This document shows, piece after piece, positions 21,030-45,974 of a stretch of 64,000 nucleotides of DNA. The position numbers were made by a program, and so were the translations under genes. Below the pieces are notes generated by a model that worked only from the letters and a program-made list of their open reading frames with translations, had not been told where the DNA came from and searched no databases. How positions within the stretch are numbered: position 1 is the first letter of the stretch; each line of letters opens with the position of its first letter. Source of the DNA: Deltaproteobacteria bacterium IMCC39524 (GTDB lineage: Bacteria; Desulfobacterota; Desulfuromonadia; Desulfuromonadales; BM103); NCBI GenBank assembly GCA_029667085.1, contig JARUHJ010000002.1, positions 434,001 through 498,000 of the forward strand. Direction: 5' to 3'.

Positions 21030-22763
21030 ATGCTGTTTGAACATCGTAAAATCGGTGAAATCCTGGTCGAGATGGGGGCTCTTGCTCCGGCGGAAGTGCG
21101 TCTTGTCGTCGATCAACAGCGCGAGTCCGGTCAGCGCTTCGGTGAAACGGCCATCGCTCGTGGTGTGCTTTCCGATGATGTCGTCGCGCAGGCCCTTGCC
21201 CAGCAGTTTGGCCTTGAGTACGCTGACCTCGACACTATCGTTGCAGACCCTGCGCTGGGCGAGAGTCTCCCGCCCGAGTTATCCATCCGCTATAATTTTA
21301 TCCCTCTGCAGAAAACTGAAGAGGGTCTGGTGATCGCGATCTCCGACCCGACCAATGTTGCAGAGCTCGATGACCTCGAAATGCAGCTTGATATGCAACT
21401 CGTCTGTCAGGTCGCTGCTCGCAGTAAAATCACCGCCCACCTTGGGCAGGCTCAGGGATCAAAGCAGGTTCTGCAGGAGGTCTCGGAAGACTTCAAGCTG
21501 CAGCTGGTCAAAGAGACAGACAAAGGCGAAGAGGTCCTGTCGATTGAAAAATTGACCGATGACAGCAGTCCGATTATTCGTTTGATCGATTCAACCCTCT
21601 TTGATGCGCTAAACAAGCGCGCCAGTGATATTCATATCGAGAGCAGCCCTGATGGCGTGCAGATCAAGTACCGGGTCGATGGTGTCCTGTTCCGTGCCAC
21701 GGAGCCTTTGGACGGCCGCTTCCAGGGGCCAATCATCTCACGTATCAAGGTCATGAGTGAACTCGATATCTCTGAGAGGCGTATACCCCAGGACGGTCGC
21801 TTTAAAGTGCGCATGGCGGGCAAGTCGATAGACTTCCGTGTCTCCATCATGCCGAGTATTTTTGGTGAAGATGCGGTTATCCGTATCCTCGACAAAGAAA
21901 GTATCGCCAAGGATCTGCACGGTTTGACTCTCGATGTCCTTGGCATCGAAGGGCATGAGTTAACTCGTTTTCGTCGCATGATCCGTGAGCCTTACGGTAT
22001 GGTTCTGGTCACCGGCCCGACCGGTAGCGGTAAGACGACGACTCTTTATGCAGCTTTGACGGAGATTTATAACGAACAGGAAAAGATTATCACCATAGAA
22101 GACCCCGTTGAATACCAGCTCAAGGGGGTCGTCCAGATTCCGGTCAACGAGAAGAAGGGGTTGACCTTTGCCCGCGGTCTACGCTCCATCCTGCGTCATG
22201 ACCCCGATAAGATCATGGTTGGCGAGATCCGTGACCCGGAAACAGCTCAGATCGCTGTCCAGTCAGCTCTTACGGGACACCTGGTCTTCACCACTGTGCA
22301 TGCCAATAACGTTTTTGATGTCCTTGGCCGTTTTCTGCACATGGGAATTGATGCTTATAATTTTGTGTCCAGCTTGAACTGTGTGGCAGCTCAGCGGCTG
22401 ATTCGCAAGATCTGTGTCCATTGCAAGCAAACTGTTACTTACGAACGTGAAGACTTTATCGACTCCGGTCTCGATTACGACAAGCTTAAGGATCATACCT
22501 TCTACGAAGGGGCCGGCTGCAAGGAATGTAACGGTCAGGGCTATCATGGCCGTACCGCCATTCTTGAGCTGCTTGACCTGGATGACAATTTACGCGACCT
22601 GATTATCAAAAAGGCTTCTGTGAGTCAGCTCAAAGAGGCGGCGCGTGCTGCAGGCACTTCGTTCTTGCGAGATTCTGCCATAGAGAAATTGCTTAAGGGC
22701 GAGACGACGATGGCTGAGATCAACCGAGTCACCTTCGTTGACAAAGCAGGGGGGGGCTCATGA
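21030..22763 (+). CDS. gspE: Type II secretion/pilus assembly ATPase GspE
   Basis: A 577-residue secretion ATPase: N1/MshEN-type domain (KIGEILVEMGALAPAEV), then the RecA-like core with Walker [16 protein letters not shown], Asp box TIEDPVEYQ, Walker B (IMVGEIRDPETA) and His box (TGHLVFTTVHANN). The Zn-binding tetracysteine is present (CVHCK and CKEC). It powers pseudopilus polymerisation. I chose the ATG at 21030, eight bases after GGAG; a TTG at 21024 is too close. It overlaps the next gene by four bases. Confidence 0.95.
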   Translation: MLFEHRKIGEILVEMGALAPAEVRLVVDQQRESGQRFGETAIARGVLSDDVVAQALAQQFGLEYADLDTIVADPALGESLPPELSIRYNFIPLQKTEEGLVIAISDPTNVAELDDLEMQLDMQLVCQVAARSKITAHLGQAQGSKQVLQEVSEDFKLQLVKETDKGEEVLSIEKLTDDSSPIIRLIDSTLFDALNKRASDIHIESSPDGVQIKYRVDGVLFRATEPLDGRFQGPIISRIKVMSELDISERRIPQDGRFKVRMAGKSIDFRVSIMPSIFGEDAVIRILDKESIAKDLHGLTLDVLGIEGHELTRFRRMIREPYGMVLVTGPTGSGKTTTLYAALTEIYNEQEKIITIEDPVEYQLKGVVQIPVNEKKGLTFARGLRSILRHDPDKIMVGEIRDPETAQIAVQSALTGHLVFTTVHANNVFDVLGRFLHMGIDAYNFVSSLNCVAAQRLIRKICVHCKQTVTYEREDFIDSGLDYDKLKDHTFYEGAGCKECNGQGYHGRTAILELLDLDDNLRDLIIKKASVSQLKEAARAAGTSFLRDSAIEKLLKGETTMAEINRVTFVDKAGGGS

Positions 22764-41054: not shown

Positions 41055-42035
41055 TCAAGTTTTGTCGTTTTTACCCTGCCGCTTTAATTGATGGATGATG
41101 CCAGCTTTTTCGAGAGTGAGTGCTGCGTGATGAGCCAGTTGCACGAGGAACTGTAGATTCTGGTCGGTAAAAGGTGTCCCTTCTGCATGGCCGAATAAAA
41201 CCATCACACCGATCGCACGGTCGCGATGATAGAGTGGCACGGAGAGTAAACCGGGTTTCTCCACCAGCGATTGTTCGGCGATTGTCACCCGGTCAGCCAT
41301 GTAGCCGGGCAATCCCTCAGGTACAACTATCGGGCTGCCGCTGCGGGCAATGTCCAGCAGGAGTCCTTCTGGAAGTTGATCTGAATGGTCTTGTACAAAG
41401 TCTGCCGCGATGCCGCGACTCATTTTGATGCCGAAGTGACTGCGTCCATTGCCACGAATCAGTGCCAATAAACCACGTTTGGCATGCAAGGCTCCAAGGG
41501 CAGAATCAAGCAGGCGCCCAAGCAGGTCACTGACTTCAATTGCGGAATTTATTTTTTCTATCGCTTCACTGAGTGCGGTCATCATGCTCAATGACTGGGC
41601 CATCTCTTGGTTGCGATGTTCCAGCTCTGCCAGAAGAGTTCGATTCTGTATTCTCAGGTCGATTTGTGTGAAAGCGCGGTCGATAACGTTGAAGAGAATC
41701 TCAGAGGTGTCGATGGGGCGAACGATGAAGTCAAAGGCGCCATGCCTCAGAGCCTGTAACAAGCTGAAAGACGAGGCGTTGTGGGTTGTCAGTATTACCT
41801 CTGTCTCCGGGTGCTGTTGCTTGACCTTCTGTAACAGGTACAGGCCGCTCCGCGTTGGCAGTTCTGTCTCTGTGATGACCAGGTCTGCCGGTCTTTGTTT
41901 GACCATTTCGAGAGCTTCTTCTGCTGTTTCTGCCTCCATCACCGCATCTTCTCGTTCCAGAAGCATGGACTTGAGATGCTGACGTCGTTTCTTGACATCG
42001 TCAACGATCAGGATCGTATGGCTTTTGGTTATCAT
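41055..42035 (-). CDS. Degenerate receiver domain fused to a GAF domain
   Basis: A 326-residue protein: receiver at about 7-120, coiled coil about 125-160, GAF domain at about 165-315 (RGLLALIRGNGRSHFGIKMS, then GLLSVPLYHRDRAIGVMVLF). The receiver keeps the acidic pair (VDD, 11-13) but the phospho-acceptor is Glu56 (DLVITETELP) and the conserved Lys is Arg106 (FIVRPID). It is therefore probably not switched by normal Asp phosphorylation. There is no DNA-binding or enzymatic output. It lies 55 bases after the PATAN receptor gene on the same strand; PATAN domains are known to work with receiver proteins, which suggests a pair. Confidence 0.85.
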   Translation of the reverse strand: MITKSHTILIVDDVKKRRQHLKSMLLEREDAVMEAETAEEALEMVKQRPADLVITETELPTRSGLYLLQKVKQQHPETEVILTTHNASSFSLLQALRHGAFDFIVRPIDTSEILFNVIDRAFTQIDLRIQNRTLLAELEHRNQEMAQSLSMMTALSEAIEKINSAIEVSDLLGRLLDSALGALHAKRGLLALIRGNGRSHFGIKMSRGIAADFVQDHSDQLPEGLLLDIARSGSPIVVPEGLPGYMADRVTIAEQSLVEKPGLLSVPLYHRDRAIGVMVLFGHAEGTPFTDQNLQFLVQLAHHAALTLEKAGIIHQLKRQGKNDKT

Positions 42036-42090: not shown

Positions 42091-43929
42091 TTACTTTAAG
42101 ACCTCTGCCTTAACCATCAAGTATAGAAAACGGTAAACTTCGTAATCCATCATCGAGGATTCAACACAGATTTCATTGATCGTTCGGTTGCCGTCGATGC
42201 GGGTCAAGGTCTCTTCCTGTTGAGGAGAGAGGCTTACCTTCTCGAGTTTGGTGCGACCATCCGGGCAGAACCCCAGGGATGTGTTGAGGTTAGGCAGGGA
42301 CTGCCTTATTGCAGCCCACTCGGTTTGATGGTGAGACGCCTCACGGATCAATGCTGTGATTTCAAGAGTGATGCTCTCTTCTGGTGGCAATGAACCTTCC
42401 CCGGCGTAAATCTGGTAACGCCCTTCAGGGTAGAGAATAAGTGAATAGATCGTGACCTTGGCCTGACGAGTGAGCGCATGCCTGAGTCCGGCGAGGTCAA
42501 TCAGGCCGAGTTTGAGGAGTGCCTCTCCAAAGCGCAAGCCTGGCTCCTTTGCTAACAGTGCCATGCCCCGATCACGTTCTTCTGCGGTAATCAAAGCCTC
42601 TCGGACCAATAGATTGCCGAGCTTGTTCCAACGAACGCCTGACTCCTCTATCGTCGAGTGCTGAGTCAATGCGCCGGAAACCTGGCCACCAGCAAAGTAA
42701 ACCAGCTTTTCACAGGAGCCCTTGGTAATGCGCAAAACAACTGGTCGCGGCAGGTCTGCGCAGCGTTTGAGGAGTTGAGGAACTTTGCCAGGGCCCAGTC
42801 GGCCTTCTTCGATAATGACATCTTCTTCTTGTTTCAATGGCTCCGCAGGAGCTGACTGTTGAACCTCAGGCTCTTCTCTGTGGAAGTTTGTATCCATTGT
42901 CGGAGTTTCTTCCTGCCTGAATGAAGATGCCTTTTTCTTCTTCCAACGTAGGACGAAAAGAGCCGTCTTGAAAATAATGGCTGCGAAAATGACCAGTACA
43001 ATAAAAAGGGTCATGCGCTTGTTGGTCGCTGGCTTTGCTGCTTGTTCCTCTGCCTTGACCTTTTCTTTGCCAGGTGTTGGCTGGGGCTCTGGTGCTGTTG
43101 TCACAGAGGGTTGAGCCTCGCTTGCAGGCTGATCTTTAACTACAGGCGCTACTTTCTTGCCTGCAGGGGCAACCTGCTTGTCTACAGGGGCCGCGCTTGG
43201 TGCTTTTACTGCAGGAGACTCGACCTTTATACTTTTTACTGGCTGCGATTTCTCAGGCGCAGGCTCTGGAGCCATTGCGGGAGCTACGGTAGCCGGTTTC
43301 TTCTTAACCTTTGTTTGCACAGGAAGTTGTGATGCGGCTGCTGGTTTTACCTTTGCTATTGGCGTAGGCTTTTTTTGAGGGACCGGTGTCGGCTGCTTCT
43401 TAACGATTTGAGCTGGAGGCTCAGGAGCCAATCTTTTTTGGCTCAGAGCTTTTTCCGGGAGGGTTGTCCCTGCCAAGCCAATTTGAGACAGGGCCTTACG
43501 GCCATCTTTACTGGTTCCGAGGTCCAGAAAGGCTTTCTTGATCTGTTCTGTTTTGTTGTTGGCCAGATTGCTGCGTACGACCAACGCCAACGGTGTTAGC
43601 GAAGGCTGTTGAGCATGCAGATCAGAAATTCTATTGAGGGCTCCGGGTGGATGCTGTGTGATAAAAGACGGGGGCACTATGGCGGCATCGACTTCCTGGA
43701 AACGAAGAAGCCAGTTGGTGAGTGCGGCATCATTCTCAAAGCGCCTGACTTTTACGGGCTCTCCAGCAAGCTGACTCAGCTCTTTACTTAACTGGTCGAT
43801 GTTCCCTTGAGTAACACCGGAAAGCGGTACTGTCGAGATCAAGCCGATTGTCATGCGGGCTTCGGCGGGCAGACACAAAGTCATCAGCAGAACCGCATTG
43901 CACAAGATTGTTAGAATGAATTTTTTCAT
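42091..43929 (-). CDS. Membrane sensor: periplasmic solute-binding-like domain, TM helix, cytoplasmic PATAN (DUF4388) domain
   Basis: About 612 residues. Signal peptide 1-24 (MKKFILTILCNAVLLMTLC), a periplasmic PhnD-like solute-binding domain at about 25-160 (TIGLISTVPLSG; EVDAAIVPPSFITQ; LTPLALVVRSN), a Pro/Ala/Lys/Glu-rich spacer of about 140 residues as in TonB, one membrane helix at about 305-328, then a cytoplasmic linker and a PATAN domain from about 378 (LRITKGSCEKLVYFAGGQVS; LGNLLVREALITAEERDRG; FGEALLKLGLIDLAGLRHAL). A single protein that could sense a periplasmic ligand and signal inside by a PATAN domain. I chose the ATG at 43929 because the signal peptide starts there; an earlier start lacks one. 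The ligand is unknown. Confidence 0.8.
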   Translation of the reverse strand: MKKFILTILCNAVLLMTLCLPAEARMTIGLISTVPLSGVTQGNIDQLSKELSQLAGEPVKVRRFENDAALTNWLLRFQEVDAAIVPPSFITQHPPGALNRISDLHAQQPSLTPLALVVRSNLANNKTEQIKKAFLDLGTSKDGRKALSQIGLAGTTLPEKALSQKRLAPEPPAQIVKKQPTPVPQKKPTPIAKVKPAAASQLPVQTKVKKKPATVAPAMAPEPAPEKSQPVKSIKVESPAVKAPSAAPVDKQVAPAGKKVAPVVKDQPASEAQPSVTTAPEPQPTPGKEKVKAEEQAAKPATNKRMTLFIVLVIFAAIIFKTALFVLRWKKKKASSFRQEETPTMDTNFHREEPEVQQSAPAEPLKQEEDVIIEEGRLGPGKVPQLLKRCADLPRPVVLRITKGSCEKLVYFAGGQVSGALTQHSTIEESGVRWNKLGNLLVREALITAEERDRGMALLAKEPGLRFGEALLKLGLIDLAGLRHALTRQAKVTIYSLILYPEGRYQIYAGEGSLPPEESITLEITALIREASHHQTEWAAIRQSLPNLNTSLGFCPDGRTKLEKVSLSPQQEETLTRIDGNRTINEICVESSMMDYEVYRFLYLMVKAEVLK

Positions 43930-44102: not shown

Positions 44103-45179
44103 TCAAACTTCCGGGCGATCTCCCTGTGCTCTTTTACGATAAAAGGAGAAGAGGGCGAAGACTACCCCGAGGGTGATGCACCCAGCGCCCAACGCAGCCA
44201 ATTTGTCTCCAGGGTCTCTATTGATTGTCAAAAGGCTGAAAGTTTTGAACACTGGCTCGGTCGGACGTAGCGCGATACCTGCTTCCCTCAGTTGCCGGGG
44301 CAGCGGGGTGCGCAGAAAATACCAACCTTCCCAGAGTTTGCCGGATGGCCCCTGAAGAGAGATCAGCATGGCCGGGTTGTTGAGTCGATTGCCGGTTTGT
44401 ATGACTCTTCCCTGGTTGTTTCGGCGTGCATCCGGGAGCGTCTTGAGGAGAACAATAGTGCTCTCAGAAGAAATTGACAGCCTGCTACCGGTCCTGAGCT
44501 CGATCACCCCGCGGCCCGGCATGTGAAATTTGAAACCGTCCAACTCCTGGCCAAAGGAGGTGGGCAGGATAACCATTCCCTTATATATGAGCGGGTGGTT
44601 CATTCGTACCAGTGCTTCAGCGACCTGTGTGCCGTTATCCCAGAGAGAGACCTGGTTCAGCATATCAAGCGGGCGCCCGGAAGGTTCGAGCTGCGGTGTG
44701 AACTCCTCCAGGAGTAGAGAAAGCCCTTGCATGTTGGGAATGGCCAGATGTTCTCCCTGAAAAATGCGATGAGGCCCGGATCGGAAACCGCTGATGTTTC
44801 CCCACAAGAAAGCGATGCTCAGGAGGATGAAGCCGGCATGAATCAGGTATTCGCCGGTTTTACGCCAGCGAGCCTTGATTTTTAAAAGCCAGTCGATCAG
44901 GCAGCAGAGTGTGTTGATTGCGAACAGGAAAACACAGATGCCGCTTAATGGAACCCAAACCACCAGCAGGGGCGCTTGTGACCATGCCCATGGTAGCCAG
45001 CGGGCCATGATGTCATCTTCCATGCCAGCGAAGATGGCTGGATTGAAGTGCATGACAAGCGAGCCGCCCATAATCAGAATGGTTGCCGCAGAGGCCAGGG
45101 CAATTGCCAGCTTCAGTGAGCAGCCAAGCAGCCATAACCTGTGCAATAGCGAAAGAGACTTTTGTTTGCTGTCAGTCAT
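44103..45179 (-). CDS. resB: ResB-like cytochrome c biogenesis protein
   Basis: A 358-residue membrane protein with three N-terminal membrane segments (near 20-42, 68-92 and 108-128), a periplasmic domain (HRIFQGEHLAIPNMQGLSLL; VRMNHPLIYKGMVILPTSFG) and a C-terminal membrane helix (about 325-348). This is the ResB/Ccs1 plan of System II, in which ResB and CcsA carry haem to apocytochromes outside the membrane. It is three bases after the CcsA-like gene. Homology is recognisable in the RMNHPLIYKG segment. Its ribosome-binding site lies in the end of the upstream gene. Confidence 0.84.
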   Translation of the reverse strand: MTDSKQKSLSLLHRLWLLGCSLKLAIALASAATILIMGGSLVMHFNPAIFAGMEDDIMARWLPWAWSQAPLLVVWVPLSGICVFLFAINTLCCLIDWLLKIKARWRKTGEYLIHAGFILLSIAFLWGNISGFRSGPHRIFQGEHLAIPNMQGLSLLLEEFTPQLEPSGRPLDMLNQVSLWDNGTQVAEALVRMNHPLIYKGMVILPTSFGQELDGFKFHMPGRGVIELRTGSRLSISSESTIVLLKTLPDARRNNQGRVIQTGNRLNNPAMLISLQGPSGKLWEGWYFLRTPLPRQLREAGIALRPTEPVFKTFSLLTINRDPGDKLAALGAGCITLGVVFALFSFYRKRAQGDRPEV

Positions 45180-45182
45180 CTG

Positions 45183-45974
45183 CTACTCCAGAGGATGGTT
45201 GCTTTCCAGCAACAGGCCAATGCCAAGGTAAGTGAAAAGTACGACACCGAATCCGGCGATCGAGAGCCAGGCGTAGACGCCTCCTTGCCAGCGACGAATG
45301 AACTTGGCGTGGCACATTCCCGCATAAAACATCCAGACCAGCACCGACCAGACACTTTTGATGTTCCAGCTGAACCAGTGGCCCCAGGCAATATGCGCCC
45401 AGATGCTGCCTGCAATCATGCAGAGGGTAAAAAGGCTGAAACCAAGAAAGATCGCTTCTTCGTTGATGCGCCTCAGGGTCTGAAGATCCGGTAACATGTT
45501 GCTGTGCAAGCGGGTCTGGAGCAGGTAGAGCGCGCCGATGGAAAAGGCCATGGCGAAAAAGGCATAACCGATGAAAGAAAAAATAATGTGCAAGCTGAAC
45601 AACGGTGTGTCGAGCGCCGGGATCAAGGCAGAGATCTTCGTGTCTCGCGGCAGTGCGCCACCGAGTAGAAGGAGATTGAGAAGCATAACAAAAAGACCCG
45701 TGGCGCGGATGCGATAACGGAGCTCAAAGTACAGGTAAATCAGGGCCAGGGCCCAGCTGAAAAAGAAGAGCGTGGCGAAAAGGTTGGTTACCGGCAAGTA
45801 GCCCGCGAGCCACCAACGATGAGCGAGGAGGCCTGTTTGCAGAAAGACGCCTGCGGCTATCAGCGCAAGCGCTCCCTTGGCAATGATGGGCCGTCTCCAG
45901 ATCAGGTGCAGCAGGTAGCCGATGGTGGCCGTCGCGTAGATTGAAAATAGCAGGTAGAGAAGTGGTTTTGACAT
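45183..45974 (-). CDS. ccsA: CcsA/ResC-like cytochrome c assembly protein with altered WWD motif
   Basis: A 263-residue protein with eight hydrophobic segments, of the CcsA/CcmC haem-handling family. The tryptophan-rich loop reads WGHWFSWNIKSVWS near residue 205, where the usual form is WGxYWxWDPKEtWS; Asp, Pro and Glu are replaced. Conserved histidines flanking the loop should be checked (LLHLIWR near 23; SLHIIFSFIGYAFFAM near 130). It should work with the ResB-like protein encoded next, but the altered loop suggests divergence in haem binding or a different substrate set. Confidence 0.8.
   Translation of the reverse strand: MSKPLLYLLFSIYATATIGYLLHLIWRRPIIAKGALALIAAGVFLQTGLLAHRWWLAGYLPVTNLFATLFFFSWALALIYLYFELRYRIRATGLFVMLLNLLLLGGALPRDTKISALIPALDTPLFSLHIIFSFIGYAFFAMAFSIGALYLLQTRLHSNMLPDLQTLRRINEEAIFLGFSLFTLCMIAGSIWAHIAWGHWFSWNIKSVWSVLVWMFYAGMCHAKFIRRWQGGVYAWLSIAGFGVVLFTYLGIGLLLESNHPLE

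Follow-up and report, generated by a model that had tools for sequence, protein, structure and literature searches.

The window analysed here, a 64,000-nucleotide stretch from Deltaproteobacteria bacterium IMCC39524, carries on its minus strand a 612-residue frame that runs from 43929 to 42094, with its stop codon at 42093–42091. The frame is followed by a receiver–GAF gene and lies behind two co-directional genes, resB (44103–45179) and ccsA (45183–45974), that were named by sequence reading only. The protein combines a small periplasmic domain of PhnD type, termed mini-PhnD throughout, with a PATAN domain, and the parts of the locus are as follows.

42091–43929, minus strand: whole gene, 612 amino acids plus stop (frame translation)
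43858–43929, minus strand: signal peptide, residues 1–24, predicted by eye (hydrophobic N-terminus; model helix 2–18)
43450–43854, minus strand: mini-PhnD, a one-lobed PhnD-like periplasmic domain, residues 26–160 (profiles, model, Foldseek, alignment)
43021–43449, minus strand: Pro/Ala/Lys-rich disordered periplasmic linker, residues 161–303 (pLDDT mostly below 50; composition)
42931–43020, minus strand: single membrane helix, residues 304–333, with basic residues on its C-terminal side (hydropathy, model)
42817–42930, minus strand: short cytoplasmic linker, residues 334–371 (model, composition)
42313–42816, minus strand: PATAN (DUF4388) domain, residues 372–539 (PF14332, E 4.8e-12; model)
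42463–42624, minus strand: alpha-helical PATAN insertion, an MshEN homologue, residues 436–489 (profile matches; motifs)
42094–42312, minus strand: C-terminal helical region, residues 540–612, conserved in the class (class alignment A3; model)
41055–42035, minus strand: receiver–GAF gene, 326 amino acids, receiver degenerate (Pfam; alignment of copies)
44103–45974, minus strand: resB and ccsA, upstream and co-directional

The order of parts proposed in the initial annotation (signal peptide, PhnD-like domain, Pro/Ala/Lys spacer, one helix, PATAN) agrees with Pfam, with the structure model and with 21 relatives. The Pfam match to PATAN (PF14332, DUF4388) reaches 46.4 bits against a cut-off of 25 and spans residues 395–539. 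The linker of about 147 residues is composed of 19% Pro, 18% Ala and 16% Lys. A model built on a 99-row alignment gives a block-mean pLDDT of at least 91 at residues 31–160 and over most of 371–612, a helix at 304–333 and a low-confidence spacer, while a single-sequence AlphaFold model of the whole protein (pLDDT 42.8) was set aside. In each of the 21 full-length relatives, the window protein included, mini-PhnD is followed by a linker of 110–182 residues (13–38% Pro), after which comes the most hydrophobic segment; the 12 residues behind it include 3–6 Lys or Arg. This segment was taken as the best-scoring one, which is always picked, and the hydropathy threshold of at least 1.8 was judged separately; it is passed in 17 of the 21, and the segment is weaker, at 1.52–1.75, in L086, L088, L091 and L094. 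Because the basic residues directly follow the hydrophobic segment, PATAN should face the cytoplasm. A transmembrane protein with the PhnD-fold domain in the periplasm and PATAN in the cytoplasm, as was claimed before, is supported. Among the carriers of this class are Geothermobacter hydrogeniphilus HR-1, a Geoalkalibacter sp., a Desulfuromonas sp. and other Desulfuromonadales.

Several loci depart from this build. In a draft genome of the same genus a stop interrupts the PATAN gene L074 (1086–2486, minus strand) and the greater part of its mini-PhnD is absent; this could be an assembly error. The orthologue L098 (6821–7636, plus strand) is a 271-residue PATAN protein lacking signal peptide, mini-PhnD and membrane helix, and it still stands behind resB. 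Among 14 loci listed from the rest of the phylum, the PATAN relatives are PATAN-first, four of them soluble and nine with a later membrane helix; at the fourteenth, L245, a different frame was picked and it stands outside this count. Membrane-bound PATAN proteins of this opposite order, PATAN first and helix later, occur in other families at L238–L241, L246–L249 and L251.

The relation of mini-PhnD to solute-binding proteins had to be established with some care. On the window copy the Pfam profile PF12974 (Phosphonate-bd) gives E 1.3e-4 and 21.9 bits, below its cut-off of 27, over profile positions 185–235 only. This weak match is not due to chance, since three further lines concur: a 24-row mini-PhnD profile run against PDB sequences finds PhnD 3n5l (1.9e-5), PhnD 3s4u/3p7i (2.8e-5) and ArrX (9.2e-5); three mini-PhnD copies carried by a second protein of this genome reach 94.6 bits with PF12974; and Foldseek with the window domain model returns ArrX (1.2e-5), AioX (7.0e-5) and PhnD (2.0e-4). 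The initial annotation had named the lack of a solute-binding fold at residues 25–160 as the outcome that would speak against it, and by sequence profile and Foldseek alike a fold of PhnD type is present there. Two lobes with a ligand cleft were also sought in the window domain and were not found: its length of about 130 residues, the strand and helix order, and target-length TM-scores of 0.32–0.40 for the PhnD-type Foldseek matches, as expected for half of a target of about 255–300 residues, would fit one lobe. In the model the strands 98–106 and 114–119 are joined by a short turn. When aligned with three ordinary PhnD homologues from this order, mini-PhnD lacks about 110 residues, among them the second-lobe segment with an S/T-rich loop, which we take to be the ligand-binding loop in PhnD. 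The two lobes of PhnD-type proteins are pseudo-symmetric, and the exact deletion points are therefore uncertain; the Pfam alignment itself varies among mini-PhnD copies, some covering profile positions 12–92 and others 140–239. Judged from the model, mini-PhnD would thus be about one lobe of a PhnD/ArrX/AioX-type protein, and the best reading of the alignment is that it arose when a solute-binding protein lost about 110 residues. The literature, in the partial texts available, offered nothing relevant on PhnD-type domains carried by outer-membrane proteins, on a PhnD family with a single lobe or on MltF as a possible precedent.

These results bear directly on whether the window protein is a receptor. 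A one-component receptor would bind a solute (phosphonate, phosphate or an arsenite-like oxyanion) outside and relay the change along the linker to PATAN and on to the receiver; its nearest folds are indeed those of PhnD, ArrX, AioX and PtxB, and a W-x-x-R...V-D signature is kept in the mini-PhnD of 21 out of 21 PATAN members. Nevertheless, the periplasmic domain is about one lobe and the segment with the second-lobe loop is deleted, so the solute-sensor reading is weak. The same domain also sits on transport and adhesin barrels, and a disordered linker of about 147 residues would make a poor conformational relay. We therefore regard such a receptor as unlikely, even with the adjacent receiver genes described below counted in its favour. 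What stands of the solute-binding domain announced in the initial annotation is the PhnD-type fold; its functional sense does not, given the missing residues and the occurrence of the domain on non-receptors.

In its own genome mini-PhnD was found by profile search in eight copies distributed over five proteins: the window protein, a TolC-like protein (three copies), LptD (one), an inverse autotransporter (one) and a protein with an uncharacterised C-terminal family (two). A reading of the own-genome tblastn matches beyond the window, L002–L004 and L006–L008, as low-complexity noise was rejected, since their proteins contain genuine additional copies of the domain. Across the order, 36 of 136 genomes gave profile matches at E 1e-6. 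Five of them (G007, G078, G103, G104 and G134) were counted as ordinary PhnD, having partial matches only, in frames of 304–342 residues (G007 and G104 were read, the others judged by length), and 31 of 136 carry mini-PhnD. In a sample of the phylum, where the best ten candidates per genome were scored and four loci with the C-terminal part were left out of the classification, 17 of 395 genomes match; six of these belong to the same order and have near full-length copies, and the remaining eleven match in the C-terminal part only, at most over positions 56–135. Plasmid records yielded no mini-PhnD match.

The partners of the domain fall into nine classes among 76 classified proteins: PATAN (21), LptD (18), the uncharacterised C-terminal family (17), metallo-hydrolase (6), Ig-like adhesin (4), TolC-like (3), PgaA (3), inverse autotransporter (2) and TPR (2). 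Proteins were assigned by blastp against exemplars or from the Pfam matches of one to three members per class, L169 being placed with its near-copy L165. Dropped before the count were L102, L103, L104 and L200 (cut, or partner not visible), one broken frame at L179, the weak matches L194–L196 (36–41 bits, 215–230 amino acids) and the ordinary PhnD proteins L197–L199. In all 76 mini-PhnD is joined to another region, which sets it apart from PhnD-type binding proteins. The uncharacterised family, here labelled 'X941' (PF..VMVP...GE..GYVEDSGCCSTD), is represented by L108 (949–1476, minus strand) and 15 others in alignment A4; full-length scans of L108 and L166 gave no Pfam match, the PDB holds nothing that matches the family below E 0.2, and all members seen were found through mini-PhnD. 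The hydrolases have a metallo-beta-lactamase fold (L101 by PF00753; L148, L150, L151, L176 and L177 by blastp). In the PgaA-type exopolysaccharide porins L187, L191 and L192 mini-PhnD is N-terminal, with domain scores of 48–72 bits.

A tree of 98 copies over 136 columns, with 22 of its 95 inner forks open, requires 17 changes of partner, where the minimum possible is 8 and the mean after shuffling is 59. The TolC-like proteins L105 and L145 have three copies at the N-terminus, nested among LptD copies (100/99), whereas L173 carries two C-terminal copies nested among those of the uncharacterised family (100/100). Still, L173 is a TolC-like orthologue of L105 and L145, being 70% identical over 471 residues and having the same downstream gene (52% identical). 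A single origin of the TolC-like mini-PhnD copies, with the group defined by partner and the test chosen after the tree had been seen, is rejected (p-AU 1.5e-6). The pair L173 (3837–6965, minus strand) and L105 (3179–7108, plus strand) thus shows orthologous proteins with domains at opposite ends and from different donors. Mini-PhnD is an order-restricted module in the genomes sampled that has been repeatedly exchanged among partners; what is new here is this module of half size, limited to one order, and its passage between envelope proteins.

Since the same domain is joined to several unrelated envelope proteins, envelope anchoring is more likely than nutrient sensing as its role. OmpA-family domains bind the cell wall, and it is with such a domain that mini-PhnD alternates in inverse autotransporters, which were matched in 10 of the 136 genomes of the order. 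Between signal peptide and barrel, two of the ten (L107, L175) have mini-PhnD and two others (L227, L229) an OmpA-family domain (PF00691, E 2.2e-14 and 8.1e-16) followed by a Pro-rich stretch; the slot is empty in six (five by Pfam, L224 by eye), which counts against an anchoring role, and the empty-slot genomes G008, G018 and G020 carry mini-PhnD elsewhere. In the corresponding slot of E. coli YeeJ a LysM domain binds peptidoglycan (PMC5595812, excerpt). In family f7 the PATAN gene is succeeded in six of six loci by a gene for an SLT_2 lytic transglycosylase, identified with Pfam at L091 and L095 and with blastp at the remaining four. A charge signature of wall binding was sought in the 98 copies and not found: 62 are net negative, 27 positive and 9 zero, so that charge does not in general favour wall binding, and the PATAN-joined copies have a mean net charge of +1.6. 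Seven LysM matches in the own genome indicate that mini-PhnD does not replace LysM wholesale. By analogy with LysM and OmpA-type domains, we infer that mini-PhnD may anchor its carriers to the wall or envelope.

The domain could also be thought of as docking a shared periplasmic protein, such as an assembly chaperone, a protease or a scaffold, which would gather LptD, TolC-like, PgaA and PATAN proteins there. That many outer-membrane barrels carry it, at one end or the other, would suit this, as would the missing charge pattern of a polymer binder and the W/R/D signature, which 69 of 98 copies have and none of three full PhnD proteins has. However, the signature is absent from both autotransporter copies and from all five TPR copies, and the transglycosylase neighbour and the OmpA domain in the same slot fit the wall better. 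Such docking is in our estimate improbable, if less so than a receptor.

On the cytoplasmic side, the insertion within PATAN is an MshEN homologue. Compared with PDB, it matches PilF at 2e-11 and MshE at 4.1e-8, that is the N-domains of PilF/MshE/PilB, and it shares the tandem 24-residue motifs of the c-di-GMP-binding MshEN domain, whose form is RLGxx..Q. The second motif is nearly canonical (R in 16 of 19, Q in 18 of 19), whereas the first is degenerate, with Lys for its first Arg in 18 of 19 and its Gln in none of 19. The window protein follows this pattern, second motif intact and first degenerate, and scores 22.9 bits with NF053729 against a cut-off of 38. Makarova and colleagues reportedly named the insertion 'alpha-clip', a four-helix bundle, in 2006, and the MshEN link may for this reason be partly known; in the portions available of the PATAN/DUF4388 literature the insertion is not identified with MshEN, and the corresponding portions of the MshEN paper mention neither PATAN nor DUF4388. 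Elsewhere in the window (21207–21464, plus strand) an MshEN domain lies in a 582-residue frame that is probably a GspE/PilB-type ATPase. Cyanobacterial PATAN proteins bind the pilus motor PilB (PMC10519157, in the part available), which makes a type IV pilus link of the window protein plausible by analogy.

The prediction that the next gene encodes a receiver protein was borne out: the frame at 42035–41055 is a receiver–GAF protein. If the phosphorylated Asp and the conserved Lys are assumed to be the canonical receiver positions, the window copy has Glu56 in place of the former and the sequence VRPID in place of KP, so that both residues are missing in the alignment. Among 13 copies of this protein, the window's included, 12 keep the receiver and the L078 copy consists of the GAF part only; of these 12, all have Arg for Lys and 10 have Glu for the phospho-Asp. 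A receiver gene adjoins PATAN in 15 of 29 loci (window, L073–L079, L083–L086, L089, L090 and L093), an adjacency that is neither rare, which the initial annotation had said would count against it, nor general. At L083, L084, L089 and L090, which belong to two other families, it is a single-domain receiver keeping Asp and Lys; at L093 a 124-residue frame of the same place and size is a receiver by position only. As four loci hold an Asp/Lys-keeping receiver beside PATAN, docking of receivers on PATAN is plausible. The signalling pair seen in the initial annotation survives as this adjacency, but phospho-signalling in this genus is not supported, and the degeneration of the receiver speaks likewise against a receptor that would hand its signal to it.

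Upstream, the nearest co-directional gene is resB in 15 of 29 loci (at a distance of 1.2 kb in L084), and the place of the PATAN gene behind ccsA–resB could point to a regulatory role in the maturation of cytochrome c or in respiration. The upstream context differs in seven loci (L076, L078, L085, L088, L091, L094 and L095), the last four being of family f7, and in seven more (L073, L079, L080, L082, L087, L092 and L097) the contig ends too early to tell. The other carriers of mini-PhnD have no evident link with cytochromes, and we consider such a regulator very improbable.

The build of the window protein recalls a different kind of protein, the single-pass membrane organiser of FimV/HubP type, and an envelope-anchored PATAN hub of this kind is the account we would give it, with confidence falling a little short of even. 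The one-lobed PhnD-like domain would tie the protein to some fixed envelope structure, the wall or something wall-bound being the likeliest, and the Pro-rich spacer would let it reach outward from the inner membrane. The cytoplasmic PATAN would serve as a docking platform for receivers and, by analogy with other PATAN proteins, for the type IV pilus or other envelope machines, and mini-PhnD would have been passed among the envelope proteins of the order as an anchoring module. It is possible, although we rather doubt it, that a halved solute-binding protein became in this way a general envelope anchor in the places of LysM and OmpA, spread over LPS, efflux, exopolysaccharide, adhesin and signalling proteins, and with PATAN formed a FimV-like hub where FimV is nearly unseen. 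The carriers of the module include core envelope machines (LptD, TolC-like, PgaA) and a membrane-bound PATAN protein. Should wall binding be true, a solute-binding fold would be recast as a structural anchor, and a candidate polar hub would be at hand for bacteria where FimV is hardly found; should mini-PhnD instead bind some solute or protein, this would reveal a signal or partner that many envelope proteins have in common.

FimV_core was matched in one of the 136 genomes of the order, the own genome not being the one, and as the profile had no match in 14 control genomes this single hit is the only check on the sensitivity behind its absence. The window protein itself has no Pfam or NCBIfam match to the FimV core, to LysM or to the C-terminal FimV TPR domain. 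A long acidic cytoplasmic linker of 351–744 residues (D+E 17–26%, K+R 3–6%) is found in six of 19 members examined. That of the window member has only 33–38 residues (D+E 21%, K+R 9%), which weighs against the FimV-like account, as does the orthologue L098 with neither membrane helix nor periplasmic domain.

How, then, does the protein compare with known systems? With PhnD, ArrX, AioX and PtxB it shares fold and sequence over about one lobe, but mini-PhnD is half their size and the second-lobe segment is missing. With LysM and OmpA-type wall-binding domains mini-PhnD has in common the slot that it takes in inverse autotransporters and FimV-like proteins, although its fold is unrelated and its wall binding is a presumption. 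PATAN–receiver fusions of the PixG, PixE and LsiR type are soluble; PATAN is common to them and to the present protein, and receiver proteins are at hand in both. The cyanobacterial PixG, PixE and LsiR join the two in one chain (PMC7690835 and PMC10519157, both in part), whereas the present PATAN is tethered to the membrane and the receiver is encoded by a gene of its own. FimV/HubP is alike in its signal peptide, periplasmic anchor domain, single membrane helix and C-terminal docking domain and, for the long members, in the acidic cytoplasmic stretch that FimV/HubP also has; in P. putida the LysM-like domain of FimV/HubP is needed for wall binding and polar anchoring (PMC12918733, available sections, for both points). 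In the present proteins mini-PhnD stands where LysM does in FimV/HubP, and PATAN replaces the FimV TPR domain.
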